DNA from: Hexactinellida sp. DTS-2022
Taxonomy: Eukaryota; Porifera; Hexactinellida
Assembly (NCBI GenBank): GCA_028753945.1
Contig: JAPNXP010000001.1
Span: forward strand, 17,102,501-17,166,500
Length of the DNA stretch: 64,000 nucleotides
Direction: 5' to 3'
A model generated the notes under the pieces. It was not told the origin of the DNA, searched no databases, and worked only from the letters and a program-made list of their open reading frames with translations. This document shows positions 3,231 through 63,844 of the stretch, piece by piece (the first letter of the stretch is position 1; every line of letters begins with the position of its first letter). The position numbers and the translations under genes are program-made.

Positions 3231-4712
3231 TAATAGGTCAACTCAAATAATAGCCCATAATGACCTAGGCTACTATTCGAGTAAATACGTTAGTTAGTAC
3301 AGAGGGATTTATTACAGATTAGGTTAACGCGTGTTTCGCCTCGGCTAAGGCTCATCAGTCAGGCTGCCATTCTCCTGATACACACTAATACAGTATATGC
3401 TCTGCTGCTTATAGGAGACCGATTGTATTGTTAGCTCAGATACTAAAGTAAAGTTATATACCAGTTAAATGGATTCATCTCAGATAACCTAAATTTCATT
3501 ATAAATCATAGACAATCAAATTAGCTGTTTTTAAAACTTGCGAGACAATAAGAATGGAGTTTCCCATTAGATTGTGCTATAATTGTTTGTTAAAGAATTC
3601 CTATATGCAGGGACAGATAACTTAACCTATGCCATCTCATACCTCACACTATAATTTAGGCCCACTAAGCAAGACAATAACTGAGTTCTTATCCATCCTA
3701 TGGACTACTAGTGTACTAGTGTAAGTGTAAACTATTGTATGGTAATTCAATATGCTAAGCTTATGTACGTATATCCCAGTTGAGAACCACTATCTGAGGT
3801 AGGTTAATGAGGATATACAGTTAGTTATATCTGAATCAAAGTGCGGGTTGTATCAAAGCTGGCATACACTAGTCTATATATGTATAATATTTGTGTATTA
3901 GTGTGATAAGAAGAATGACAGCTGACTGATAGGAGCAGATTGTATTTGGGTTAAAGCAGGAAATATTTTGTAATTTTTCTGAGTCCGTAAAAGAAAATGG
4001 AACCATTATATAAATATGTAAATTATGTAATACAGATTACCATGAATAGTCAATAGCAGGGAAGCCAATTTATATACGGTATATACGGTATCCCTTGGAT
4101 GCTACCCATGTACGTGTACTGACTAATTCGCCATATAACTGAAGTACCCAGGGAAGGGTTTTAAGGCCGATCTTGGTGTAAATTTTGCACCAAGTTTTTT
4201 TTAAACTTACACCACGATTCGGGTCGGCCGCGGCCGCTGCAGTGTTGAGTTACACTAAGGTCTCAACCTTAAAAAACCCTGCTCTAGGGAATATTATCTC
4301 CTATGAACCCTGGGGCAACTGCCCATTATTCCTGTTCAATAGCATATACCATGTACGGTAATATAATTATACTGTCTGAATATTGCACCCAATTTAATAC
4401 GATTCAGTTAGTTGTTAGTTGGTGGGTTTGCCCAATTTTTTTGAAGTTAATTTTGATAAAAAGCTGCTACCAATTTGTTGTAATTATCGAACATAGTATA
4501 CGTATATGTTGAATTATATTTTAATATTCTTTTACCCAATTAGAAATGCGACCTTATCTTTTTTAAATATGTTATGTATACAAACAGCGGAGAGTATGGT
4601 ATTACACTGAGAAGCTTCATACAGAAATCGACTTCAAAAGAATAGAACGAGAATATATTAAGTCCTTCGTTTCCTCTCAGTTCGATTATAAACCTCTTAG
4701 CATACATACATA

Positions 4713-13863: not shown

Positions 13864-15651
13864 CACGGACTACTATATTACCGGACGCGACAAAGCCAAA
13901 CCACAGTCAAAGATGCATAGGCTGAACATTGTATGACTGAAAATATGGTCAATTCTGTATTTTTAGTCACTAAATTTGGTATCTAACAGAATCTTTGGGC
14001 GCTGAATTCAAAAATGGCAATTTCAAGGTTCAAAAACTCACTCCCCGCCTTAATTTTGGCAAAAAGGCGTGGTCACACCCAAATATGGTCAATCCCATAT
14101 TTTTGTTCTATTACTTCATCATAACACTAAATTCGCAATATCCTCTTAACTAGGAACGATATTGATGAAAATATGATTAATAAATTGTTCAGCTAAATAT
14201 ATATTGCTACGTGACGGTCGTGACCTTCGGTATACAAGGCCTGCATTGCTAGGCGAAAATTTGTGTACCATGGATTACTTAAAGTTCATTGAAAATTGGA
14301 GAATTGATCCATATTCCAATAATTAGCAATGATAGAGCTGAAAAGTGTATTATAACTATATAGGAATATGGTATCCAGGTATACATAGCACCCTCCAGAA
14401 TTGTGATATGTCATCATCTGATGACGTTATGGTAATTTTGGTTGCGAATTATCTTGTTTTTCTAGCATACTTTTAACATAGTCAAACGCGTTATAAATGT
14501 TCAAAATTGGAACATGGTTATACCCAGAAATAGTTGAATAAAATATATCGAAATTATAAATGGAATGTGACACATTCCTCGGTTCCCATGGAAAATGTAT
14601 ATTTCCTAAAATGTGCCATAACTCAAAAACTATAAATGTTATGTAAACTAGGCTAGTACTGATCTATCCGGAATAGGTAACTTCCTATTCATCGATAATA
14701 CATTTTCAATGCCTAACTTCAATAATCTTTGAGATAATGAGATAATTAACACTTAATTCATTATTAGGTAATGACTCACTATCTCAAAGATTATTGAAGT
14801 TAGGCATTGAAAATGTATTATCGATGAATAGGAAGTTACCTATTCCGGACAGATTAGTACCAGCCTAGTTTACATAACATTTATAGTTTTTGAGTTATGG
14901 CACATTTTAGGAAATATACATTTTCCATGGGAACCGAGGAATGTGTCACATTCCATTTATAATTTCGATATATTTTATTCAACTATTTCTGGGTATAACC
15001 ATGTTCCAATTTTGAACATTTATAACGCGTTTGACTATGTTAAAAGTATGCTAGAAAAACAAGATAATTCGCAACCAAAATTACCATAACGTCATCAGAT
15101 GATGACATATCACAATTCTGGAGGGTGCTATGTATACCTGGATACCATATTCCTATATAGTTATAATACACTTTTCAGCTCTATCAATGCTAATTATTGG
15201 AATATGGATCAATTCTCCAATTTTCAATGAACTTTAAGTAATCCATGGTACACAAATTTTCGCCTAGCAATGCAGGCCTTGTATACCGAAGGTCACGACC
15301 GTCACGTAGCAATATATATTTAGCTGAACAATTTATTAATCATATTTTCATCAATATCGTTCCTAGTTAAGAGGATATTGCGAATTTAGTGTTGTGATGA
15401 AGTAATAGAACAAAAATATGGAATTGACCATATTTGGGTGTGACCACGCCTTTTTGCCAAAATTAAGGCGGGGAGTGAGTTTTTGAACCTTGAAATTGCC
15501 ATTTTTGAATTCAGCGCCCAAAGATTCTGTTAGATACCAAATTTAGTGACTAAAATACAGAATTGACCATATTTTCAGTCATACAATGTTCAGCCTACGC
15601 ATTTTTGACTGTGGTTTGGCTTTGTCGCGTCCGGGTATCTAGTAGTCCGTG
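13864..15651. mobile_element. Palindromic (foldback) transposon, copy A
   Basis: A nearly perfect inverted repeat of 1788 bp whose two arms of about 860 bp meet around an AT-rich centre near 14755. Ends are CACGGACTACTA and TAGTAGTCCGTG. The flanks are TAGAAAC (13857-13863) and TAGAAAA (15652-15658), a 7-bp duplication with one mismatch. No transposase; open frames inside are mirror artefacts. Two further copies lie at 23732-25503 and 35776-37565. Confidence 0.9.
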
Positions 15652-23731: not shown

Positions 23732-25503
23732 CACGGACTACTAGAATACCCGGACGCGACAAAGCCAAACCACAGTCAAAAATGCGTAGGCTGAACATTG
23801 TATGACTGAAAATGTGGTCAATTCTGTATGTTTAGTCACTAAATTTGGTATCTAACACAATCTTTGGGCGCTGAATTCAAAAATGACAATTTCAAGGTTC
23901 AAAAACTCACTCCCCGCCCTAATTTTGGCAAAAAGGCGTGGTCACACCCAAATATGGTCAATTCCATATTTTTGTTTCTATTACTTCATCATAACACTAA
24001 ATTCGCAATATCCTCTTAACTAGGAACGATATTGATGAACATATGATTGATAAATTGTTCAGCTAAATATATATTACTACGTGACATTCGATATACAAGG
24101 CCTGAGTGCTAAGCGAAAATTTGTGTACCATGGATTACTTAAAGTGCATTGAAAAATGGAGAATTGATCTTTATTCCAATAATTAGCAATGATAGAGCTG
24201 AAAAGTGTATTATAACTATATAGGAATATGGTATCCAGGTATACATAGCACCCTCCAGAATTGTGATATGTCATCATCTGATGACGTTATGGTAATTTTG
24301 ATTGCGAATTATCTTGCTTTTCTAGCATACTTTTAACATAGTTAAACGCGTTATAATTGTTCAAAATTGGGACATGGTTATACCCAGAAGTAGTCGAATA
24401 AATATATCGAAATTATAAATGGAATGTTGACACATTCCTTGGTTGCCATGGAAAATGTATTTTCCTAAAATGTGTCATAACTCAAAAATTATGAATGTTA
24501 TGTAAATTAGGCTGCTACTGATCTATCCAGGATAGGTAACTTCCTATTCATCGATAATACATTTTCTATGCCTAACTTCAATAATCTTTGAGATAATGAG
24601 ATAATTAACACTTAATTCATTATTAGGTAATACACTCATTATCTCAAATACTATTGAAGTTAGGCATATAAAATGTATTATCGATGAATAGGTAGTTACC
24701 TATCCTGGATAGATCAGTAGCAGCCTAATTTACATAACATTCATAATTTTTGAGTTATGACACATTTTAGGAAAATACATTTTCTATGGCAACCAAGGAA
24801 TGTGTCAACATTCCATTTATTATTTCGATATATTTTATTCGACTACTTCTGGGTATAACCATGTCCCAATTTTGAACATTTATAACGCGTTTAACTATGT
24901 TAAAAGTATGCTAGAAAAACAAGATAATTCGCAATCAAAATTACCATAACGTCATCAGATGATGACATATCACAATTCTGGAGGGTGCTATGTATACCTG
25001 GATACCATATTCCTATATAGTTATAATACACTTTTCAGCTCTATCATTGCTAATTATTGGAATAAAGATCAATTCTCCATTTTTCAATGCACTTTAAGTA
25101 ATCCATGGTACACAAATTTTCGCTTAGCACTCAGGCCTTGTATATCGAATGTCACGTAGTAATATATATTTAGCTGAACAATTTATCAATCATATGTTCA
25201 TCAATATCGTTCCTAGTTAAGAGGATATTGCGAATTTAGTGTTATGATGAAGTAATAGAAACAAAAATATGGAATTGACCATATTTGGGTGTGACCACGC
25301 CTTTTTGCCAAAATTAGGGCGGGGAGTGAGTTTTTGAACCTTGAAATTGTCATTTTTGAATTCAGCGCCCAAAGATTGTGTTAGATACCAAATTTAGTGA
25401 CTAAACATACAGAATTGACCACATTTTCAGTCATACAATGTTCAGCCTACGCATTTTTGACTGTGGTTTGGCTTTGTCGCGTCCGGTATTCTAGTAGTCC
25501 GTG
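23732..25503. mobile_element. Palindromic (foldback) transposon, copy B
   Basis: A 1772-bp inverted repeat with ends CACGGACTACTA and TAGTAGTCCGTG, flanked by the perfect 7-bp duplication GTAGAAC (23725-23731 and 25504-25510). The interior is the same as copies A and C with scattered substitutions. The mirror-image open frames near 24077-24277 and 24959-25159 are by-products of the palindrome. Confidence 0.92.
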
Positions 25504-32005: not shown

Positions 32006-32033
32006 TAGCCAATTAATAAAATCTCACTTCGTG

Positions 32034-32085
32034 GGTAGTTTCATCCCATCACAGGGACTCATCAGGAGGATAACCCTCGACCACC
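32034..32085 (-). ncRNA. Hammerhead ribozyme motif 2
   Basis: On the minus strand: stem III 5' GGTGGT, cleavage-site C at 32079, stem I hairpin GAGGG-TTA-TCCTC, core CTGATGA, stem II GTCCC-TGTGAT-GGGAT, then GAAA and the stem III 3' strand ACTACC. All invariant core bases (CUGANGA, GAA, A15.1-U16.1) are present. Stem III is the open helix, so the order is that of a class III hammerhead. The base pair next to the core in stem II is G-U rather than G-C, so activity may be reduced. Confidence 0.8.
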
Positions 32086-32124
32086 ATGCATACTGCCGTA
32101 AAACCATGTTACTTCTATCCAGGC

Positions 32125-35775: not shown

Positions 35776-37565
35776 CACGGATTACTAGATACCCGGACGC
35801 GACAAAGCCAAACCACAGTCAAAAATGCGTAGGCTGAACATTGTATGACTGAAAATATGGTCAATTCTGTATTTTTAGTCACTAAATTTGGTATCTAACA
35901 CAATCTTTGGGCGCTGAATTCAAAAATGACAATTTCAAGGTTCAAAAACTCACTCCCCGCCCTAATTTTGGCAAAAAGGCGTGGTCACACCCAAATATGG
36001 TCAATTCCATATTTTTGTTCTATTACTTCATCATAACACTAAATTCGAAATATCCTCTTAACTAGGAATGATATTGTTGAAAATATGATTAATAAATTGT
36101 TCAGCTAAATATATATTACTACGTTACGGTCGTGACCTTCGGTATACAAGGCCTGACTTGCTAGGCGAAAATTTGTGTACCATGGATTACTTAAAGTGCA
36201 TTGAAAAATGGAGAATTGATCTTTATTCGAATAATTAGCAATGATAGAGCTGAAAAGTGTATTATAGCTATATAGGAATATGGTATCCAGGTATACATAG
36301 CACCCTCCAGAATTGTGATATGTCATCATTTGATGACGTTATGGTAATTTTGGTTGCGAATTATCTTGTTTTTCTAGCATACTTTTAACATAGTTAAACG
36401 CGTTATAAATGTTCAAAATTGGAACATGGTTATACCCAGAAGTAGTTGAATAAAATATATCGAAATTATAAATGGAATGTTGACACATTCCTCGGTTGCC
36501 ATGGAAAATGTATATTTCCTAAAATGTGCCATAACTCAAAAACTATGAATGTTATGTAAACTAGACTGGTACTGATCTATCCGCAATAGGTAACTTCCTA
36601 TTCATCGATAATACATTTTCTATGCCTAACTCAATAATCTTTGAGATAATGAGATAATTAATACTTAATTCATTATTAGGTAATGACTCACTATCTCAAA
36701 GATTATTGAAGTTAGGCATAGAAAATGTATTATCAATGAATAGGAAGTTACCTATTGCGGATAGATCAGTACTAGCCTAGTTTACATAACATTCATAGTT
36801 TTTGAGTTATGGCACATTTTAGAAAAAATACATTTTCCATGGCAACCGAGGAATGTGTCAACATTCCATTGATAATTTCGATATATTTTATTCTACTACT
36901 TCTGGGTATAACCATGTTCCAATTTTGAACATTTATAACGCGTTTAACTATGTTAAAAGTATGCTAGAAAAACAAGATAATTCGCAACCAAAATAACCAT
37001 AACGTCATCAGATGATGACATATCACAATTCTGGAGGGTGCTATGTATACCTGGATACCATATTCCTATATAGTTATAATACACTTTTCAGCTCTATCAT
37101 TGCTAATTATTCGAATAAAGATCAATTCTCCATTTTTCAATGCACTTTAAGTAATCCATGGTACACAAATTTTCGCCTAGCAAGTCAGGCCTTGTATACC
37201 GAAGGTCACGACCGTAACGTAGTAATATATATTTAGCTGAACAATTTATTAATCATATTTTCAACAATATCATTCCTAGTTAAGAGGATATTTCGAATTT
37301 AGTGTTATGATGAAGTAATAGAACAAAAATATGGAATTGACCATATTTGGGTGTGACCACGCCTTTTTGCCAAAATTAGGGCGGGGAGTGAGTTTTTGAA
37401 CCTTGAAATTGTCATTTTTGAATTCAGCGCCCAAAGATTGTGTTAGATACCAAATTTATTGACTAAAAATACAGAATTGACCATATTTTCAGTCATACAA
37501 TGTTCAGCCTACGCATTTTTGACTGTGGTTTGGCTTTGTCGCGTCCGGGTATCTAGTAGTCCGTG
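35776..37565. mobile_element. Palindromic (foldback) transposon, copy C
   Basis: A 1790-bp inverted repeat with ends CACGGATTACTA and TAGTAGTCCGTG, flanked by the perfect 7-bp duplication CTATAAC (35769-35775 and 37566-37572). It is the same family as copies A and B. Confidence 0.92.
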
Positions 37566-38879: not shown

Positions 38880-40294
38880 CGCCATCTCATCATCACTATG
38901 AAGGTGTTAAATTATTTCAGAAAGGTGTTTCAAAAGGCAACGACCCTTAGTAAGTAGGAAGTTTCGTTTTAGCTCACTTCATTTCAAAGATATTCAAGTT
39001 TCAGTAGAATATAATAAGTGATGCGTCAGCATTTTTAATGTGCGTGCTGGGTGATCGGATCACCCAACACCAACCAACCCATTCGAAATATAGAATTCAC
39101 AAAATTGTAAAAACACATTTTTTTGATGATGTCATCATCACCTCAAGGTGTCAAGACCTATTTATAGAGGTGTTACGTGGCATAAGGATCAATTGATAAA
39201 TTGGAAATTTGTTTCTATCTTCTATAATCTCTGAGATTAATGATATTTAATTAATTAGTATAAATAATTTTTAATATTATTTATAATATAGCATCAATTT
39301 CAATGTCAACTTACAATTATTAAGTTAAATTATTTTGTCATAAATAATTAATTAATTAATTTGGCTATCAAATTTCAATTCCGCACACTCGATAACCCCT
39401 AATAAACAAATTGGAAGCACCTATATAAGTCATATACTGACTGAATTAATTATAATTAATTACGTCAGTATATTTATAGGACAACAGTATTCCTGCAGTA
39501 AATATAATCACAAAATCTGTCGTTGTTAAGGAATGTAATATCTTAGTTTTCAATTAGAAAATAGAAGCCTACTCGATCTCACAAGTTGAATCAATATAAT
39601 TATTACAAGTTGAAACAATATAATTATAATTAACACTTTCATTTGAACTGAAGTGTTAGTAAACAAAGGGAATTTTCAACTCAATTGTGGCACAAACGAA
39701 ACCCAGTTTAAAATTCGTGCACTGTGAAAGGTGTAGAATTAGATTCTCTATCGAATGCATATAAATTGAACTTTCGCGCACTATTTATTGTTCCTTTTCT
39801 AACATTGAACAGGTGTAAAAATGTGTCCAAAAAAATCTAACAAAAAATCGTGACCCCAGGTGCACATCTGTAACCCATGAGACACCTGTCCTGAAATTTT
39901 CAGTTCTTAGTAAATATAACTCTGTTCTGTGGAGAGGATAGAGAAGGATAATTACCTACCAAAGCAGTAAGATTAGAACTGGGCCACTATAGTATAGTCG
40001 GCACAGTAATAATGAGATAGTGAAAATGAGATAATTATAATATACTTTCTGGCTGACTTAATATGAATTTGTTCCATATTCCATAACTAGCAGACTCTTT
40101 GGTTACCATGATGTTATGTTAGAGTTAGCACCTGGTTAAATAATGAATAATTATTCCAGGAATTATATGCTTGCGTGAGTTTAATTGCATCAAGTATAAT
40201 GAACTATTGAACTAGCAAGCAAAGTATAAATATATCCATTTATTGTAAAATAATAAATATACTGAAACAAACAAGTAAAGATTCAAATACACAA
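38880..40294. other. Repeat-derived AT-rich sequence upstream of the NHL gene
   Basis: No gene recognised. It shares diverged blocks with 41900-42480 and 51630-51815 (the AAATTTGTCTGGTCCATAAC, GTGTGAGTAAAGAAAG and related stretches), so the NHL genes sit among copies of one long repeat family. A tract near 39987-40012 resembles other dispersed fragments containing AGTCGGCACAGTAA. Confidence 0.5.
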
Positions 40295-41551
40295 ATGGCG
40301 ACTCAAATACCTGAGCTAATCCCAGTGCCAATCGTAGACCCCGTGTCGATACAAATCAACCAATCGATAGACATGTTGATGCTCTGTCTCGAGCAGAGAA
40401 GGAACCAGCTGTTGACCGACTTAAGGGACAGACGAGAGGAAATCAGAGCCAATCGGGTGACGCGTCAACAAATGCAACAACAAATAACCGAAACCCGCGC
40501 ATTTTTAGAAGGTCAAATGACGCACAATTTGCTACATTCCTTTCAGGAAAAAATAGTCACAGATTTGGAAGCCAAAATGGCAGAATTGCAAGTGGCAGCA
40601 CCACCTCAAGAAGTGAGCTACCTCTGCGACACACGGGACCTAGAGGAACGTATCTCCCGTATGGGAGAGATTCTACAACTCGAGACTCCGCCCATCCCTC
40701 CTGTGCCAGCGATACCAAACTATGCCACATTCCAACAACCCATTGTTGCTGTTGGTAAACAAGGATCAGCTCCTGGAGAGTTTAACGGCCCAAGAGGTGT
40801 CTCAATCGATACGGAATCCGGACGTATTTATGTGGAGGAATTGGGCAACAAAAGAATTCAAATATTCTCAGAGACAGGAGACTATATCAACGAATTCGGA
40901 CAACACCTGAAAAGTCCATGGGGCATATTAATCCATCAGGATAGCATTTATGTCACGGACACAGACCAACACGCTATCTTCCTATTCAAGCTTCCAAATC
41001 TCACAATGGTAAAGCGAGTAGGGAAGCAAGGATATGGAAATGAAGAGTTCATTTCTCCGAGACAACTGGCCATATCTCCCAATCAACGCCTCTACGTGAC
41101 TGATACAAACAACAACAGAATCCAAATTATGTCTACAGATCTAGCATTCCAAGGTTCGCTTCGACATCAAACAATGACAACACCTGTTGATGTTAAGTTC
41201 ACAAGAAATGAAATGTTTGTGTTAAGCCATGAAGACAATCCCTGTATCCACGTGTTTACACTATCAGGAGAGAAGTCCCGCTCCATTCAAGTTACCGGAG
41301 GAATTGGAATGCAAGTGGACCACCCATACTTCTTCTGTTTTGACAAACGCAATAACATCGTCATTAGCGACTACTATGGACACAGTATCAAGGTATTCTC
41401 TCCCGAAGGAGACCTACTACACACCATAGGGGGATCAGGACATAAAACTGGATTGTTTTCCCGCCCTACTGGCATAGCAATCAACAACAACAACAAACTC
41501 GTTTGTGTATCTGAAAACAGGAAATTTGGACTCCAAATATTTTCTGCATAA
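40295..41551 (+). CDS. Coiled-coil NHL-repeat protein (TRIM-NHL-like without RING or B-box)
   Basis: Single-exon frame of 418 residues. Residues 20-125 are charged and heptad-like, consistent with a coiled coil; a Pro-rich linker (132-142, TPPIPPVPAIP) follows. Residues 150-418 form a six-bladed NHL beta-propeller, with blades marked by repeats such as GEFNGPRGVSID, RIYVEELGNKRIQIF, SIYVTDTDQHAIFLF, RLYVTDTNNNRIQIM, NIVISDYYGHSIKVF and LFSRPTGIAI. NHL propellers bind RNA or protein; in TRIM-NHL proteins they sit behind RING, B-box and coiled coil, and here those fingers are absent. The ATG at 40295 is the first in frame, and upstream sequence is repeat-like. A broken relative lies at 50291-51525. 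Partner and role cannot be inferred from sequence. Confidence 0.85.
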   Translation: MATQIPELIPVPIVDPVSIQINQSIDMLMLCLEQRRNQLLTDLRDRREEIRANRVTRQQMQQQITETRAFLEGQMTHNLLHSFQEKIVTDLEAKMAELQVAAPPQEVSYLCDTRDLEERISRMGEILQLETPPIPPVPAIPNYATFQQPIVAVGKQGSAPGEFNGPRGVSIDTESGRIYVEELGNKRIQIFSETGDYINEFGQHLKSPWGILIHQDSIYVTDTDQHAIFLFKLPNLTMVKRVGKQGYGNEEFISPRQLAISPNQRLYVTDTNNNRIQIMSTDLAFQGSLRHQTMTTPVDVKFTRNEMFVLSHEDNPCIHVFTLSGEKSRSIQVTGGIGMQVDHPYFFCFDKRNNIVISDYYGHSIKVFSPEGDLLHTIGGSGHKTGLFSRPTGIAINNNNKLVCVSENRKFGLQIFSA

Positions 41552-47160: not shown

Positions 47161-47327
47161 TAATTTAACTTGTGAATTCGAGCTGGCTTCTATTTAATTG
47201 TAGTGTGATGACGGGCTGACGGGAGTGTACTAGAGGGATCCTAGTGTAGGGGAGTCGTACCTAGTACCTGTGGTAGGAGAACGGTATGGCTCACTGGTAA
47301 CTAGAACTGGAGTAGACCAGTTGTAGT

Positions 47328-47377
47328 GTGGTCGAGGGTTACCCTCCTGATGAGTCCTTGTGATAGGACGAAACCAC
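47328..47377 (+). ncRNA. Hammerhead ribozyme motif 1 (best copy)
   Basis: Plus strand: stem III 5' GTGGT (47328-47332), predicted cleavage after C47333, stem I hairpin GAGGG-TTA-CCCTC (47334-47346), core CTGATGA (47347-47353), stem II GTCCT-TGTGAT-AGGAC (47354-47369), GAAA (47370-47373), and stem III 3' strand, the last A of GAAA plus CCAC (47373-47377). All three stems pair perfectly and every invariant core base is present. Stem II covaries with copies 2 and 3: the fifth pair is U-A here and C-G there. The host repeat spans roughly 47213-47460 and has no protein. Confidence 0.88.
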
Positions 47378-47692
47378 TTCCACCACATGTAGTATCTCGG
47401 TGGGTGTGAGATACATTTACGGTGTCTCAGGCTCACCACAGTAGTATTACATATTATAGAATGGATTAATGCAAATAAAATAAAATAGGAATTTGTTGAC
47501 TTAACTCAACCTACCGTGGATAACATTGCTAAATAATTCATACAAACTGCTCGTCCGCGCTAACGCGCGTTCTTCAACTTGCACTCGGGCCTGAGGCCCA
47601 CGCTTGTATTTCAAACACTTCCCTTTTCAAATAAAATGCCGGTTGTATTTAATTACATACTCATTATATACCCCGTCCCTACATCATGCTTT

Positions 47693-50290: not shown

Positions 50291-51525
50291 ATGGCCATTC
50301 GATTCCCTGACCCGATACACCCCGTAGACGTATAGACCCTGTCGAGTTGGAAATAAATCAACTATTCGACCACATAATTGTGTGTGTCCAGCAGCGACGA
50401 GTGGCACTCATAACCACATACCGCGACACACGCGACGAAATAGCCGTTAGACCCATAGCCCCCGCGCGGAAAGAAGAAGAACTGATCGCACTGAAACCGT
50501 AACCGAGCGTCTCCCAAATGAACGAACTGAGAGAGACCCAGGTATTCTAGCGGAACTAGAACAAGCGCTAGCAGAGGTGAGGGTACCCCAGCCCGAGACA
50601 CGCGTGGTGTTCCGAGGTACCTGTGGACACCTGGAGCAGGTGATCACAGGTGTGGGAGAGGTAGTCGAGGAGGAGGTGCCCGTTATACCCCGATATGAAG
50701 AAATGAGACCGATTGTAACTGTCGGGAAGAAAGGAAAGCTCCTGGAGTGCTCTGGAATCCTTGTGGTGTCGCTATCGATGGGAACACAAATCTAATTATG
50801 TCGCAGAAGAGTTAGGTTCCTGTAGAGTCTCAATCTTCACAGAGACAGGCGAATTCCTAAATTCTTTCACAAATCAAGACATGAGAAACCATGGGGTATA
50901 GCGATCCATCGAGACAACCTGTACGTGACGGACCAAGGAGTATACGCTGTGTTCCAATTCAAAATAGAGGCTGACATGCGTCTCGTCGCTAGCCTAGGGA
51001 GTAGGGGATCTGGTTTGGGACAGTTCGATTACCCTTTCGGACTCGCCGTCTCTACCAACGGAGATGTGTTCGTAGCAGATTATGGCAATCACAGAATCCA
51101 AATCCTAGATGACTCCCTACACTTCCAAAGATCCATAACGCATCAAACAATGAAACGCCCGCTTGACATTAAACTGACACCAGATGAGGTGTACGTGCTC
51201 TGTATGGACTCTCCCTGCATACACGTGTTCTCTCACGCAGGAGAGAAGATACGCTCCCTAATCACACGAGGTACAGGAATGCAGATAGGATATGCTCGCT
51301 TCTTCTGTTTGGACAGAAAACAGAATTTGCTGATCAGTGATTATCATAATGATCAAGTTTAGAATATTCTCGAAAGAAGGGACACACCTCCACACTATAG
51401 GGGAACTAGGACATGAAGTCGGAATGTTTAATTTCCCTCATGGAATAGTTTTAACTGAAAATCTAAAATTAGTAAATGTGTCTGAGAATAATAACAATTC
51501 ACTACAAATATTTTCTTGTCAATAA
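50291..51525 (+). pseudogene. Broken coiled-coil NHL-repeat gene
   Basis: Relative of 40295-41551. The ATG (MAIRFPDPIHPVDV) hits a TAG after 14 codons, while the continuing homology (DPVELEINQLFDHIIV) is in another frame. The clearest segment, 50925-51362, encodes NHL blades (GQFDYPFGLAVS, DVFVADYGNHRIQIL, NLLISDYHNDQV). A further frameshift near 51350 moves the last blade (FRIFSKEGTHLHTIG to SLQIFSCQ) into a third frame. Base composition is GC-richer than the flanks, like the other genes here. Decay looks recent, because most of the protein is still readable. Confidence 0.8.
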
Positions 51526-56935: not shown

Positions 56936-57139
56936 CAGGGGTCGGCAACCCTAGGCACGCGTGCCACTTATGGCACGCGAAGTGTTTTCCATTGCACGCC
57001 AAATGATTCACCAAACATTTTCCGTGGTGACCATATTATGTTTTCTCTAAAAATAAATTATGTTTGGCACGCAAGGTCATAAATATGTTGACATTATAGG
57101 TAAACTGGCACACATCATTCAAAAGGTTGCCGGTCCCTG
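56936..57139. mobile_element. hAT MITE in the left arm, 204 bp
   Basis: Ends CAGGGGTCGGCAACC and GGTTGCCGGTCCCTG, with the perfect TSD CTCTAAGG (56928-56935 and 57140-57147). Confidence 0.92.
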
Positions 57140-58106
57140 CTCTAAGGCAATCCCGCGGTTGAATGGACTTGGACCATGGATGAACTAGTATAGTTAACTA
57201 AATATATGCAATGCAATTATTCTTCGAAATAAGTAATCCAGGGTGCTTCTACATATGTAATTGTTTTATATTAAGGTGGTCATGTACAAGACGCATATTT
57301 TTGAGGTACCACTTGGTCGAAATGACGTCACCGTATTGTCTAATAGGAAAAATATGCCAAAACTTTGAACGCATGTAAAATGTTCAATTTCGCTTTTTCA
57401 AACAAATTGCTGTGACTAATCCATCTAGGAGTATTTTACATAAAATATCTCAGAATCAATTATGGACTGTTACCACATTCCTCTGTTGCCTTGGAAACGT
57501 GAATTCAATGATTGAGGTATTATCTCGAGTAGGAATATAGTCACAGCTTAGTCAATGGATCCAATCGATAGCCCGTCCTTAACTTCCTATTCAATGATAA
57601 TACATTTCGATGCTCTATCTCCAACCAATTTTATGCAAAATGTGTATACTCATTTGAATGTGTATTACAATAATCACAATTCTCAGAAAATTGGTCGGAG
57701 ATAAGAGCATCGAAATGTATTATCATTGAATAGGAAGTTAAGGACGGGCTATCGATTGGATCCATTGACTAAGCTGTGACTATATTCCCACTCGAGATAT
57801 TACCTCAATTATTGAATTCACTTTTCCAAGGCAACAGAGGAATGTGGTAACATTCCATAATTGAGTCTGAGATATTTTATGTAAAATAACTCCTAGATGG
57901 GTTAGTCACAGCAATTTGTTTGAAAAGCGAAATTGAACATTTTACATGCGTTCAAAGTTTTGGCATATTTTTCCTATTAGACAATACGGTGACGTCATTT
58001 CGACCAAGTGGTACCTCAAAAATATGCGTCTTGTACATGACCACCTTAATATAAAACAATTACATATGTTGAAGCACCCTGGATTACTTATTTCGAAGAA
58101 TAATTG

Positions 58107-60746
58107 GGGGGAGTTACACTAGTCAGAATTTCGGAGTTGTCACAAGTCAGAATATTGCTAGTTGTCACAAGTCAGAATGTCTTTTTGGACTGTTGTCACA
58201 AGTCAGAATGTTTTTTTTGGACTATTGTCACAAGTCAGAATTGTTTTTTTGGACAGTTGTCACAAGTCAGAATTGTTTTTTGGACTGTTGTCACAAGTCA
58301 GAATTGTTTTTTGGACTGTTGTCACAAGTCAGAATAGTTTTTTGGACTGTTGTCACAAGTCAGAATAGTTTGTTTGGACAGTTGTCACAAGTCAGAATAG
58401 TTTTCCATTGTTGTCACCACAGTTCTCACTTTTAAGAATCCTCAATTAGTTTTAGTTCTTCGATTTATTTTTCACACTTATAGATACAATTAATGTTATA
58501 TAATTTCATCACTTCTGATACATTTGAAGATTATTCGTTATGATTTGTCACTGAAATTAGGCCGATTTCTGGACTCTAATCGTAGGCAATTTATTAATTT
58601 TAAGTTTTATAAACGAATATGGAATATACTTTACAAGAGTACAAACGTCGTGAAGGAAAAGTGTTTACAACTTCAGATGGACATAAATATATTCGGTCAA
58701 AAATCACTGAAAAATATGTTTACCTGAAATGCGGATTATTTAGACAGAATGATTGCAAGGGAACTAGCAGACTAAATCGGGAAACTGAATTAATTACTCC
58801 ATTGACACGGCACCATCACAGTAATGAAGATTATCAATCAAATGTCTTTGATCTAAAGACAAAATGTAAAACCCTTGCCAAACACACACAAACAAATTTT
58901 AGGAAAGTATTTAACGATGCAACAAGAACAGATCCATCATGATATATCTTTCGCAGAATGTGAAGCTGCAATGTATCGTGCAAGGAGGACTTCGCAACCA
59001 AAAATACCTCAATCAGCTTCAGAATTCTCTGAGATGTTATCAACTACACCTTTGGGTGATTATCACAAATTCACTGTCACGCGTAATGGCCAAATAGGAG
59101 TGGTTTTCTTTTTCCGACCAAATGAAAACTTTCATGCCTGAAGTTACTAACAAACAGTTTGATGGTACTTTCTTTACAGTCCCTGTTCAATTCTTCCAAC
59201 TTTGGACGATATTTGTGTCTATCGGAAGAAACACTTTACCAGCAATTCACTGCCTGTTGACTGCAAAGAATCAAGAGTTATATCAAGCTGTTTTAGAAAG
59301 CCTCAAAAAAAAAATCCCTCTATTTACACCCATCGCTTCCATGTCCGATTGGGAACCTGCAGCAAGGAATGCTTTTAGAGAAATTGATCCCCAAATGAGG
59401 ATTTTTGGATGTTGGTTCCATTATACCCAGCGAATTTGGGGCAAAACACAAAAGCTTGGGCTTAGCCAAGAGTTTAAGGACAAACCACAAGTTGCAAATT
59501 TTATCAGAAATCTAATGGCCTTACCTTTTCTACCTGCTGCTCTCATTAATTCTTCCTTTACCTTCCTCGAGCTGCCTACATTGGATAATATTACAAAGAT
59601 GAAACTTGACAAACTAGTGAAATATTTTAAAAAAGCGTTGGCTGAACCAAATTTCCTCAGAAGAACTTTCTATTTTTGAATTAGATATAGCAACGAATAA
59701 TGCTGCCGAAAGCTATCATTCAAAGCTGAAAACAATGATAAAAACTTGCCATCCAAGAATATGGACGTTTCTTGATACACTAAACGAGGTTATTCAAGAT
59801 ACCGACAATGAAATAGGTCGCTTATGTCTCGGAAAAGAAATTACTAGGCAAAGGAAAAGGAAAGCAATCAGAAACGATGATTGTCGGAGTATGCATAAAC
59901 AAAAGTTAAGGGAAGGGATTTATACTCCAATGGAATATGTTCAGGCTATCAGTCATACTATTGGTAAAATATCTATAGAAGACAGTTACCATTCAAGCGA
60001 TTCAGAATATTCTGATAATGAAACTCCTTATCAAAGTCCTAATGAAAGTCTTAATCAAGGAAATAGTTGTGTCGTTTGTCTCTCTCCACGAGCAACAACT
60101 TGGATTTTTATGCCATATCGCCATGCAAGTTGTTGTTCAAGCTGTAGCCAACAAATTGTAGAGTTGGGACAACCTTGTCCAATTTGTCGATCAAATATCG
60201 AAACTCGATTTGAAATATTTACTTCATAAATGGCAATCAATTCACTCTCTCTTCCATTTCATTATCCATCCAACAAGCTATAATTTCATTTTGTGTTTTT
60301 TCATTCCTTTATCAATATTTCATTAAACAGTCATTATAATTACAATACGGAAAAAAATTTCAGGGAAATGATAATTTTGAAAATATTAATAATAATTCTC
60401 ACTTGTAACAAAAATTTATAAAAACTATTCTGACTTGTGAGAACAATTTAAAACCATTCTGACTTGTGACAACAGTCTAAAAAAACTATTCTGACTGTGA
60501 CAACAGTCCAAAAAAACTATTCTTACTTGTGACAACAGTCCAAAAAACTATTCTGACTTGTGACAACGGTTCAAAAAACTATTCTGACTTGTGACAACTG
60601 TCCAAAAAAACAATTCTGACTTGTGACAACAGTCCAAAAAGACATTCTGACTTGTGACAACAGTCCAAAAAAACATTCTGACTTGTGACAACTAGCAATA
60701 TTCTGACTTGTGACAACATCGAAATTCTGACTAGTGCATGCGCCTC
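58107..60746. mobile_element. Mutator-like element (MULE), 2640 bp, with minisatellite termini
   Basis: Perfect 9-bp TSD GAATAATTG (58098-58106 and 60747-60755), in the Mutator range. Terminal parts share CACTAGTCAGAATTTCG. Each end is then an array of about ten units built on TTGTCACAAGTCAGAAT, direct on the left (to about 58410) and inverted on the right (from about 60405). The outermost 11 bp of the two ends match only partly. It encodes a decayed transposase. Confidence 0.9.
58619..60229 (+). pseudogene. MULE transposase with FLYWCH-like and RING fingers, frameshifted
   Basis: Parts in order: an N-terminal FLYWCH-type finger (GHKYIRSKITEKYVYLKCG ... HHHSN, from 58619); a linker; the MULE catalytic core at 59122-59679 (FDGTFFTVP, ASMSDWEPAA, FGCWFHYTQRIW, where the D of DGTF and the D of SDWE are likely catalytic acids); NNAAESYHSKL near 59700; and a C-terminal RING-HC finger (CVVC ... 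HASCCSSC ... CPIC, about 60070-60195). Frame changes near 58940, 59135 and 59655 break it, so this copy cannot make the full protein unless those are unrecognised introns. The cut-and-paste enzyme would bind the terminal repeats. A RING finger in a transposase is uncommon. Confidence 0.82.
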
Positions 60747-60829
60747 GAATAATTGCATTGCATATATTTAGTTAACTATACTAGTTCATCCATGGTCCAA
60801 GTCCATTCAACCGCGGCATTGCCTTAGAG

Positions 60830-61392
60830 CAGGGGTGCCCAACCTGTGATTCGCGAATCAAATGTGATTCTTTTCCTGAAAAATATGATTCGCGAAACAT
60901 TTGCTTCTTATTTTAATATACTATAATTTTTGAAAACAGCATTTTACTTATTTTATCGTAAATACAATTATTATTGAATACAGTTAAAATTGATGATTCT
61001 ACAAATATAATTAAGTTATTTCAATATTTTAAATCGTTCGTTTATTTCTTCCAAAAATCTTTGAGTAACTGTTGTAACTTTATTCATGGAAGTCAAGGAA
61101 GATTGTGTGAGCGAAAATATATTTTGTTGGTATTTCTTTACAACATTTAATGGACTCATTGACAATTTTGTATCCAATTGCAAGCAGTACCAACCATCAC
61201 ATTGATAAGAATTATATATTATTTATTTATTATAATAAATATATTAGAAATACATTTGATAACACCTGCTTTTTGTTTATTAATATTATTTGTTAATTAG
61301 GGGGTTTATGGAACCTCATTGTGGTCTATGATTCGAAAATTATATATCATTTGAAATGTGATTCACCACATGAGAAAGGTTGGGCAGCCCTG
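60830..61392. mobile_element. hAT MITE in the right arm, 563 bp
   Basis: Ends CAGGGGTGCCCAACC and GGTTGGGCAGCCCTG, with the perfect TSD CCTTAGAG (60822-60829 and 61393-61400), which is the complement of the TSD used in the left arm. The interior is unrelated to 56936-57139. Confidence 0.92.
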
Positions 61393-61739: not shown

Positions 61740-62535
61740 TTAGGTTATATAATCCTCGTAGCTCTTGGGCTTCCTGTCTCTATTTGGGTATCTGCGCTGC
61801 TCAATTGTAGTCCCCGTAGCTTCTGTGTTGCCATTGTTTTCCGTTGTGCCGTCTGTCTCGACTTCTACTTCTGCGGCCCCTTCCGACTGGGCTGGCTCTT
61901 CTGGTTCGATGTTGGCTTCTGTTACTCCTGATTCCTCACTTATAGTTCCTGGGACGGTTATCTTCATGTCATTTCCTTCCCCCTCGTATAACTTGCATCT
62001 GTTGCCGTGAACCCATTTGCTACCTCTATCCCTTTTGATTTTGAGGTTGGCTCCTCTCCGCGCGACGACTTCGAAAGGTCCCTTGTACCTCACGTCCAAT
62101 GAGTCAGTCCGCGTTTCATTTCGTTCTAGTATGAAGTCCCCGGGTTCTATTTCCGCACTCCTGGCATTCTTGTCGTAGCGTGCCTGTCTCTTGACCTTGC
62201 TTAGTTCGTCGTTTTCTCTAGCAATTCTGTTGAGTTCGTCCTTACGTTCATTTAGTCTTTCTAGGTGGTGTTCATGCAAATCCATCACTGAGGGTGAGGG
62301 ACTCCAGTTTCTATTAGTGCGTCGATTGGAGACACGGGTAGTCTGCCGGTAATCAAGAGTTGGGCTGGAAACTTCGTGGAGTTTTCGGAGTTGTTGCAAT
62401 AAAGGTAACCTCCGGGAGTTGGCTGGGCCATGAATCTTTGCTTAGCTTCCTATCAAGTGTCAGACACCTTGCCACCTGTTTCACCAAGCCTATACTTCTT
62501 TCGGCCAATCCGTCAGCTTGTCGATGGTATGGTGA
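61740..62535 (-). pseudogene. Ty3/Gypsy-type pol relic: integrase C-terminal region
   Basis: The minus strand carries the last part of a retrotransposon integrase. It starts at about 62535 with SPYHRQADGLAER, typical of the end of the catalytic core, then a frame change near 62410, another near 62290, and an open frame to a stop at 61740. That frame includes an integrase C-terminal beta-barrel (GDFILERN, RYKGPFEV) and a hydrophilic acidic tail. Reverse transcriptase, gag and LTRs are absent from this window. It is a truncated, frameshifted fragment. Confidence 0.75.
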
Positions 62536-62864: not shown

Positions 62865-63540
62865 TATTGCTATAGTATATAGATCGGGTTGACATATTTT
62901 GCCAACTTCAGTCATAATTGACATACTAAATCCAAACTTGTTATTAAACTATTACGTATGCCACTTAAAAAACGTTCGCGTGTTGGTAATGATTGTAAAA
63001 AAACGCCCAATACAGCGAGAAAGCGATTAAAACGTGAAAATGAAACTTACCACCAAATACAAAGCGTATAAAACGTAGTAAACTGGCAGAAAAACACCTC
63101 CCGGAGGGCGGCTTTTCGGCTAGTTTAGCATAAAAGGACTTAACACTTTATCTGTGATGATTGTACCTTCCGGTGGTGGCATAAATATTTCTGCATCGTA
63201 GAGATCAAAATTGTTGACTGTCTCTGAGTGATAGGACTATATGTTCAGTTACTGCATCAAATTGAGGAAGCACAGTATGTGGATTAGCAATACGTATCGG
63301 TGGTAATAGGTGTAGATATCCAAAAGAAAAACATTCAAACATCCTAGCATGAAACAATAATAATGATTTGAACTTACATAATAGCTATGTAGGTCGTCTT
63401 CGTGTAGGATGTTATTCTAATAATCTTCAGGAACTCCGTAATAGAGAGGCCAAATATTGGTTTCCTGTTCAACACTGATTCATAGATAGGTATTGTGGTG
63501 AAGCTTTATCTATCTTAGATATTTAATCCATTGATATGAG

Positions 63541-63830
63541 ATGAGGCCACGCACTAGTATGAAGACTAGCCGCTCTAGTCGACCTCAAATCATAGGGATG
63601 ATATGTGAATGGTTTCGTCCCATTGCAGGGACTCCTCAGGAGAGTAACCCTCGACCACCATGCGTACTGCGGTCATGTGCCCTTAGCACACCCGTATTGC
63701 CCATGTGTCCTTCCACATGGTACCAGTCGTACTGCCGGACTTAACCCTACAGACTTACTCATGAATGTAGTGTCCGTACTGCCACCTATAGTCTTTCCCA
63801 AGGACTATACTCCTGAAGGCTACAGGTAAT
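63541..63830. repeat. Repeat bearing a hammerhead ribozyme
   Basis: GC-richer than its surroundings. The right part (TCTTTCCCAAGGACTATACT) is shared with the repeats at 21436 and 33160; the left part holds hammerhead motif 3. Open frames here are not conserved proteins. It resembles the small non-coding retroelements called retrozymes in having a ribozyme and no protein, but two tandem ribozymes were not found. Confidence 0.55.
63608..63659 (-). ncRNA. Hammerhead ribozyme motif 3
   Basis: Minus strand: stem III 5' GGTGGT, cleavage-site C at 63653, stem I GAGGG-TTA-CTCTC, core CTGAGGA (position 7 is naturally variable), stem II GTCCC-TGCAAT-GGGAC, then GAAA and stem III 3' ACCATT. Upstream flanking sequence GCAGTACGCAT is close to GCAGTATGCAT beside motif 2. 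Confidence 0.82.
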
Positions 63831-63844
63831 GTCTATAACACCAA

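Follow-up and report, generated by a model that had tools for sequence, protein, structure and literature searches.

Probable LTR retrozymes carrying type III hammerhead motifs in the genome of a glass sponge

Three type III hammerhead motifs in a 64,000-nucleotide stretch of a glass sponge genome (the window, C1:17102501-17166500) lie inside repeats that are best explained as solo or broken LTRs of non-autonomous LTR retrozymes. The probability of this reading is put at roughly 0.86. Self-cleavage, RNA circles and mobilisation by Gypsy machinery are predicted. The support for the retrozyme reading, all of it drawn from sequence, consists of the order LTR, hammerhead, primer site (PBS), purine tract (PPT) and LTR within target duplications, covariation of the hammerhead stems, two tRNA complements, Gypsy-like elements, and the forms that the insertions take.

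The three hammerheads, here called those of copies A, B and C, had been described in a first-pass annotation of the window, with coordinates, strands and stems that proved correct (Table 1). All of them reach the gathering score of 48.5 bits of RF00008, the Rfam model for type III hammerheads. The type III order, with stem III as the open helix, agrees with both the Rfam model and the order of the helices. Conservation of the core in every copy, which had also been claimed, needs one correction: copy C has CTGAGGA instead of CTGATGA, a difference at a core position that we take to be variable. The activity of copy B is doubtful because a G-U pair of its stem II adjoins the core.

Pairing kept in spite of sequence change had been offered as evidence for a functional fold. 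Three copies are a thin basis for this, and the window's copies alone give moderate evidence because their single folds are unremarkable. Their z scores are -1.71, -1.29 and -0.59, equally good folds are reached by 9/200, 23/200 and 58/200 shuffles, and the minimum-energy fold of the third copy differs from the exact hammerhead. The genome-wide set makes the argument strong.

Table 1. Features of the window and of selected loci. Plain numbers are window positions; positions beginning with C refer to contigs of the assembly.
Feature	Position	Strand	Details
Type III hammerhead, copy A	47326-47379	+	RF00008 58.3 bits, E 2.2e-10
Type III hammerhead, copy B	32033-32086	-	RF00008 48.7 bits, E 1.2e-7
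Type III hammerhead, copy C	63607-63660	-	RF00008 48.7 bits, E 1.2e-7
Decayed hammerhead-like motif	3331-3383	-	RF00008 27 bits, under cut-off
Predicted cut, copy A hammerhead	between 47333 and 47334	+	
Predicted cut, copy B hammerhead	between 32079 and 32078	-	
Predicted cut, copy C hammerhead	between 63653 and 63652	-	
Copy A, solo LTR	47204-47440	+	family A, 237 bp, TGTGATGA...TCACCACA, hammerhead inside
Target duplication flanking copy A	left 47200-47203, right 47441-47444		4 bp, GTAG
Copy B, LTR remnant	32031-32097	-	~67 bp, hammerhead and about 20 flanking bases
Copy C, solo LTR	63532-63840	-	family C type, 309 bp, TGTTATAG...TCATATCA
Open reading frame near copy C	61743-62441	-	233 aa
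Complete family D element L061	C2:5624853-5625446		
Complete family D element L069	C11:12237938		
Candidate partner L073			Pfam: zinc knuckle, aspartic protease
Candidate partner L072			Pfam: reverse transcriptase, RNase H
Candidate partner frame L082 (overlaps L067)			Pfam: reverse transcriptase
Unit with inverted ends	57135-60834		88-bp ends, 57135-57222 and 60747-60834
Long hairpin, three copies	14648-14868, 24503-24732, 36563-36778		~220 bp each
NHL-repeat proteins	40211-41551, 50826-51362		

The assembly to which the window belongs comprises 112.4 Mb in 18 contigs. The pattern GGTCGAGGGTNANCCTCCTGANGAGT has 346 matches in it with up to two mismatches (173 per strand), and the reversed control pattern has none. 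A search with the type III model, proposed earlier as a check, brought further copies to light: 64 of the 68 places scored lie over the cut-off, a count that is a lower bound with 68 of 12319 candidates scored. The same model gave no matches in 14 control genomes. RF00163, the type I model, likewise has no match in the sponge assembly, a result that proves little given that it also has none in the 14 control genomes. The exact motif is absent from the IMG/VR viral contigs.

Covariation was assessed on 64 hammerheads taken from the window and from loci cut out of the assembly, 42 of which are distinct; 41 were aligned, one 60-nt variant being left out, and the hammerheads of loci L078-L081 stand outside the alignment. 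The copies were selected by their core pattern, so that they are uninformative on conservation or decay of the core. Among 615 stem cells, 98.5% are paired, against a shuffled mean of 93.9, whereas structures slid along the alignment reach at most 63.9%. Compensatory changes occur in 28 cells (shuffled mean 6.5), a figure reached in 0/500 shuffles, and both-sided changes in 5 of 15 pairs, which 2/500 shuffles equal. The best covarying pairs include columns 34-41 of stem II (C-G 27, U-A 13, U-G 1), in keeping with the change from U-A to C-G already noted at the fifth pair of that stem, which is real. They also include columns 32-43 of stem II (C-G 35, U-A 4, A-U 1, unpaired 1) and columns 5-52 of stem III (U-A 31, G-C 6, A-U 1, unpaired 3). 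Stem I shows no double changes in the 41-copy alignment. The observation of type III hammerheads is thus confirmed, and is stronger than first stated.

The repeats around the hammerheads fall into four families, named A, C, G and D. They align poorly outside the hammerhead, often with little beyond it; between families that can no longer be aligned in the rest of the LTR, the hammerhead has been kept. Repeat ends are sharp and mostly of the form TGT...ACA.

In the window, copy A has ends that are common to its relatives at other loci. Copy C has no exact target duplication (flanks ttgg and atgg). Copy B sits between other repeats, and its homology is confined to the interval given in Table 1. 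Copies A and C are thus solo LTRs and copy B is a fragment; with a single hammerhead in each, they would release no circle by themselves.

Complete elements are found in family D. Loci L061, L069 and L071 each consist of a 5-bp duplication, an LTR with a hammerhead, an internal part, a second LTR with a hammerhead, and the same 5 bp again. The LTRs are 222-237 bp long, and the internal part is 149 bp long, non-coding, begins with TTGGCGACGAAGGTGGGAT and ends with AAGGTGAGAGGAG. Hammerheads in both direct LTRs around a short non-coding part are also found in L023, a member of the other families. The two LTRs of a copy agree at 220/222 (L061), 190/219 (L069) and 217/221 (L071) aligned positions, and the distance from one cleavage site to the next is 372, 380 and 371, respectively. 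L070 agrees with them in its internal part and is flanked by a 5-bp duplication, but its 5' LTR is a short piece without hammerhead. A subfamily (L078, L080 and L081) has TTGGTGCATTGGCCGGGAA in place of TTGGCGACGAAGGTGGGAT.

In L069, two LTRs from different subfamilies are joined inside one 5-bp duplication. A difference of this size would be unexpected for a single fresh cDNA, and the mixture suggests template switching or gene conversion.

Two primer sites can be matched to tRNA genes of the same genome. TGGCGACGAAGGTGGGAT is the exact 18-nt complement of the 3' end of a tRNA-Ser(GCT) gene (15 bases and CCA), and TGGTGCATTGGCCGGGAA is the exact 18-nt complement of the 3' end of a tRNA-Gly(GCC) gene with CCA. 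ARAGORN places the 3' end two bases further out; the canonical seven-pair acceptor stem and the discriminator base were used here. With two mismatches allowed, the tRNA-Ser site is present at 10 places; with one allowed, the tRNA-Gly site is present at 8. Either control gives 0. The tRNA-Ser end pattern itself has one exact match in the genome and two more with two mismatches, which we read as primer regions of Gypsy-like elements; its reversed control has one match. Among the retrozyme copies examined, a PBS complementary to a tRNA was seen in family D only.

Purine tracts stand before the 3' LTR in family D (AAGGTGAGAGGAG), L060 (AAGGGGGGTGA) and L023 (AAAGGGAAGGTGA); these tracts, like the hairpins beside LTRs described below, were judged by eye and without a control. 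By its anatomy, family D qualifies as an LTR retrozyme.

A different view is that the copies are MITE-like short DNA transposons that happen to contain a hammerhead, the 4-bp duplications and TGT...ACA ends being the work of a transposase. Many copies are indeed single units of 230-330 bp with imperfect inverted ends and 4-bp duplications, and inverted pairs occur. Family D, however, combines two direct LTRs with a PBS that matches a tRNA, and its second LTR is preceded by a purine tract; direct LTR pairs with a purine tract are also found in L060 and L023. Primer sites and purine tracts exclude a DNA transposon for family D; for families A, C and G, the case against one rests on purine tracts together with the common hammerhead and end type. 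A MITE-like origin of the copies is accordingly judged distinctly improbable.

An exact 4-bp target duplication flanks 8 of 20 solo copies, compared with 0 of 380 mispairings, and a 5-bp duplication flanks 0 of 20. All eight belong to the 17 solo copies from families A, C and G; the other twelve, including all three solo copies of family D, have no exact duplication of 4 or 5 bp. The solo set was drawn from the 64 copies. Left out were 25 whose nearest neighbour lies no more than 900 bp away, 2 from two-LTR insertions, 3 that repeat a single block almost identically, and 14 whose ends were not callable. The end patterns used had been corrected in view of the results of two automatic counts that had called wrong LTR ends. 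The first of these counts gave 9/48 against 24/2220 mispairings for 4 bp and 0/48 against 8/2220 for 5 bp; the second gave 3/19 against 1/342.

Insertions with several LTRs lie within a single duplication in 11 of the 13 cases examined, the outer ends having been set by eye. The duplication is 5 bp long in 6 of 7 insertions of family D and 4 bp long in 5 of 6 from families A, C and G, and no duplication surrounds L080 or L012. L018, L027 and L078, with two hammerheads or LTR pieces, stand outside the 13.

L061 and L069, complete copies that are independent of each other, share ACATG as their 5-bp duplication, which may point to a target preference. Elsewhere, hammerhead LTRs that are almost identical and share CATG flanks recur over ~0.3 Mb (L063-L066, C1:13.05-13.36 Mb); they probably stem from the duplication of a single block.

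Families A, C and G, which make up most of the copies and include those of the window, have the hammerhead, the LTR-type ends, purine tracts and duplications in common with family D. Inspection by eye of L012, L023 and L026, among the few copies with two LTRs, found no TGG primer site following the LTR. A hairpin stands there instead, directly after the LTR, its 3' arm complementary to the last LTR bases, and a similar hairpin adjoins the inverted LTR of L062.

The insertions take several multi-LTR forms. These include direct LTR pairs, abutting LTRs (L059) and an LTR followed by a hairpin and an inverted LTR (L026 and L062). L023 is a palindromic multimer of 2184 bp with five LTRs inside one duplication, which fits copying from circles. 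Solo, full and multimeric cDNAs are what the authors of the plant retrozyme study, in the portion available, expect from circles (PMC4918200). Ordinary recombination between LTRs is another source of solo LTRs. The internal part of L023 is present at full length three times, only in its own locus, and partially (42-55 bases) at five other places; a genome search with this part found no partner element for families A, C and G.

One tentative and rather unlikely explanation treats families A, C and G as another, self-primed kind of LTR retrozyme, in which the hairpin abutting the LTR takes the place of the tRNA. Snap-back copying of a circular RNA would then yield the palindromic LTR-hairpin-LTR insertions of L026, L062, L012 and L023. 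If this were true, animals would own, together with family D, old and diverse LTR retrozymes that are separate from those of plants.

Candidates for the autonomous partner of family D can be found through the primer site. Eight of the 10 places with the tRNA-Ser site were cut out. Four are the retrozymes L068-L071, L068 being the locus of L061. Three others (L067, L072 and L073) have coding frames downstream of the site and no hammerhead core within the stretch examined; immediately before the site they have ...TTATTACA, the eight bases with which the retrozyme LTR ends. The remaining locus, L074, has no long frame. Pfam matches were obtained for 4 of 7 frames scanned (Table 1). Neither of the two gag-like frames has a Pfam match, and no integrase is among the frames scanned.

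We read L067, L072 and L073 as Ty3/Gypsy-like elements. The gag-like frame of L073 has 401 relatives; the best 120 of them include one fish protein and one that we take to be from Ephydatia, a sponge. A second LTR of L073 was not found near C1:7723258, and the first half of the query used for it has ~40 matches in the genome and looks like another repeat. The PBS and the 3' end of the LTR are common to retrozymes and Gypsy-like elements, while the partner's PPT and LTR 5' end were not reached.

In the window, an open reading frame ~1.1 kb from copy C resembles, by eye, the integrase end of a Gypsy element; it has no Pfam match.

The proposed life cycle would begin with a transcript of an element with two LTRs. 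Cutting by both hammerheads would release a monomer, 371-380 nt long in family D and 486 nt long in family C, and a host RNA ligase would close it into a circle. The tRNA-Ser or tRNA-Gly would prime a Gypsy reverse transcriptase on this circle, and cDNAs of varied length would be inserted by an LTR-type integrase. Folded as a circle, the 372-nt monomer of L061 has an energy of -141.3 kcal/mol with 69% of its bases paired; 60 mononucleotide shuffles average -110.9 kcal/mol (sd 5.8), and none is as low.

Alternatively, the hammerhead might be a passenger or a device for 3'-end processing, and the copies might move as ordinary TRIMs via linear RNA. TRIMs of animals that are moved by Gypsy elements exist, with no hammerhead reported in the part of the source available (PMC10886601), and circles in the sponge are predicted from the letters of the genome. 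Against a mere passenger stand the retention of the hammerhead where the rest of the LTR can no longer be aligned between families, the covariation of its stems, and the five-LTR multimer inside one duplication. Movement as ordinary TRIMs is therefore considered improbable.

LTR retrozymes with type III hammerheads, PBS and PPT are described from plants in the available text of three papers (PMC4918200, PMC7761336, PMC7229834). Animal retrozymes are described there as type I repeats without LTR, PBS or PPT, apart from a full tRNA in schistosome repeats. Such non-LTR retrozymes, with type I hammerheads in short tandem repeats and Penelope-like or LINE machinery, are the hammerhead carriers that the accessible part of PMC7229834 describes in animal genomes, and the sponge repeats resemble them in being short, non-coding and hammerhead-bearing, with expected monomers of a few hundred nt. 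The sponge hammerheads differ in being type III, with LTRs, PBS, PPT and duplications of 4-5 bp. The LTR anatomy of family D contradicts an identity with the known metazoan kind, which has almost no probability. The first-pass annotation was right that these are functional-looking type III hammerheads and that type I carriers (metazoan retrozymes and Penelope-like elements) do not match. Its suggestion that the carrier may be undescribed stands in part: the anatomy is that of a plant LTR retrozyme, a described kind, but the literature searched yielded no report from a sponge.

The likeness to plant LTR retrozymes, as far as these are set out in the part of PMC4918200 available, extends to type III hammerheads in both LTRs, a non-coding internal part, PBS and PPT. 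It further includes 4-bp duplications (families A, C and G in the sponge), many solo LTRs, and a PBS and LTR ends in common with Ty3/Gypsy elements. By the same source (PMC4918200), the sponge elements differ in their animal host and in their primers, Ser(GCT) and Gly(GCC) as opposed to Met in plants. Family D is smaller, with LTRs of 222-237 against 300-400, an internal part of 149 against 300-600 and a monomer of 371-380 nt against about 700. It also has 5-bp duplications; palindromic multi-LTR insertions are a further difference, and families A, C and G have a hairpin where plants have the tRNA site.

Two other animal systems are similar in part. The Helenus-group TRIMs are also tiny LTR elements with PBS, PPT, many solo LTRs and 4-bp duplications, moved by Gypsy elements, but they have a tRNA-like sequence in their LTRs and, in the available text, no reported hammerhead (PMC10886601). 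Type III motifs in animals or their agents are described from flies, termites and HDV-like RNAs; these have a long-helix architecture (helices I and II), a loop-loop pseudoknot and, in the part of the source available, no reported LTR carrier, whereas the sponge hammerheads are compact and fit RF00008 (PMC7936874).

In the literature searched, mainly open-access and without preprints, no animal case of an LTR retrozyme was found; earlier reports may exist. The same literature yielded no report of type III hammerheads in Porifera, and no word beginning with "ribozyme" occurs in the main text, as available, of the genome paper on the glass sponge Aphrocallistes vastus (PMC10282587). Four points seem to be new: an animal as host, a pair of primer tRNAs, duplications of 5 bp in family D, and insertions that are palindromic.

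The published division, in the text available, between plants (LTR, type III) and animals (non-LTR, type I) would be broken by a glass sponge with plant-type anatomy. The sponge provides an animal in whose genome two primer tRNAs and candidate Gypsy partners occur together. It becomes possible to test for an ancient, horizontally transferred or convergent origin of LTR retrozymes. There is also a bearing on the proposed descent of viroid-like RNAs from such elements.

Other features of the window concern its host and its further repeats. Its NHL-repeat proteins belong to a family of at least 328 close relatives, and among the best 120 of the 328 all named ones are from Oopsacas minuta, a glass sponge. 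A fucosyltransferase reading frame has 26 relatives, the best named one being from Oopsacas minuta (61% identity over 81%), with others at 84% over 94% and 91% over 60%. From the relatives of these frames we conclude that the host is a hexactinellid sponge.

The unit with near-identical inverted ends in Table 1 has internal repeats and contains reading frames for a MULE transposase and a RING-finger protein. It is likely a MULE-type DNA transposon. Finally, the long hairpin present in three copies resembles the plant microRNA family MIR7723 (84-88 bits against a cut-off of 200 bits), and is more likely a MITE family than a set of microRNAs.
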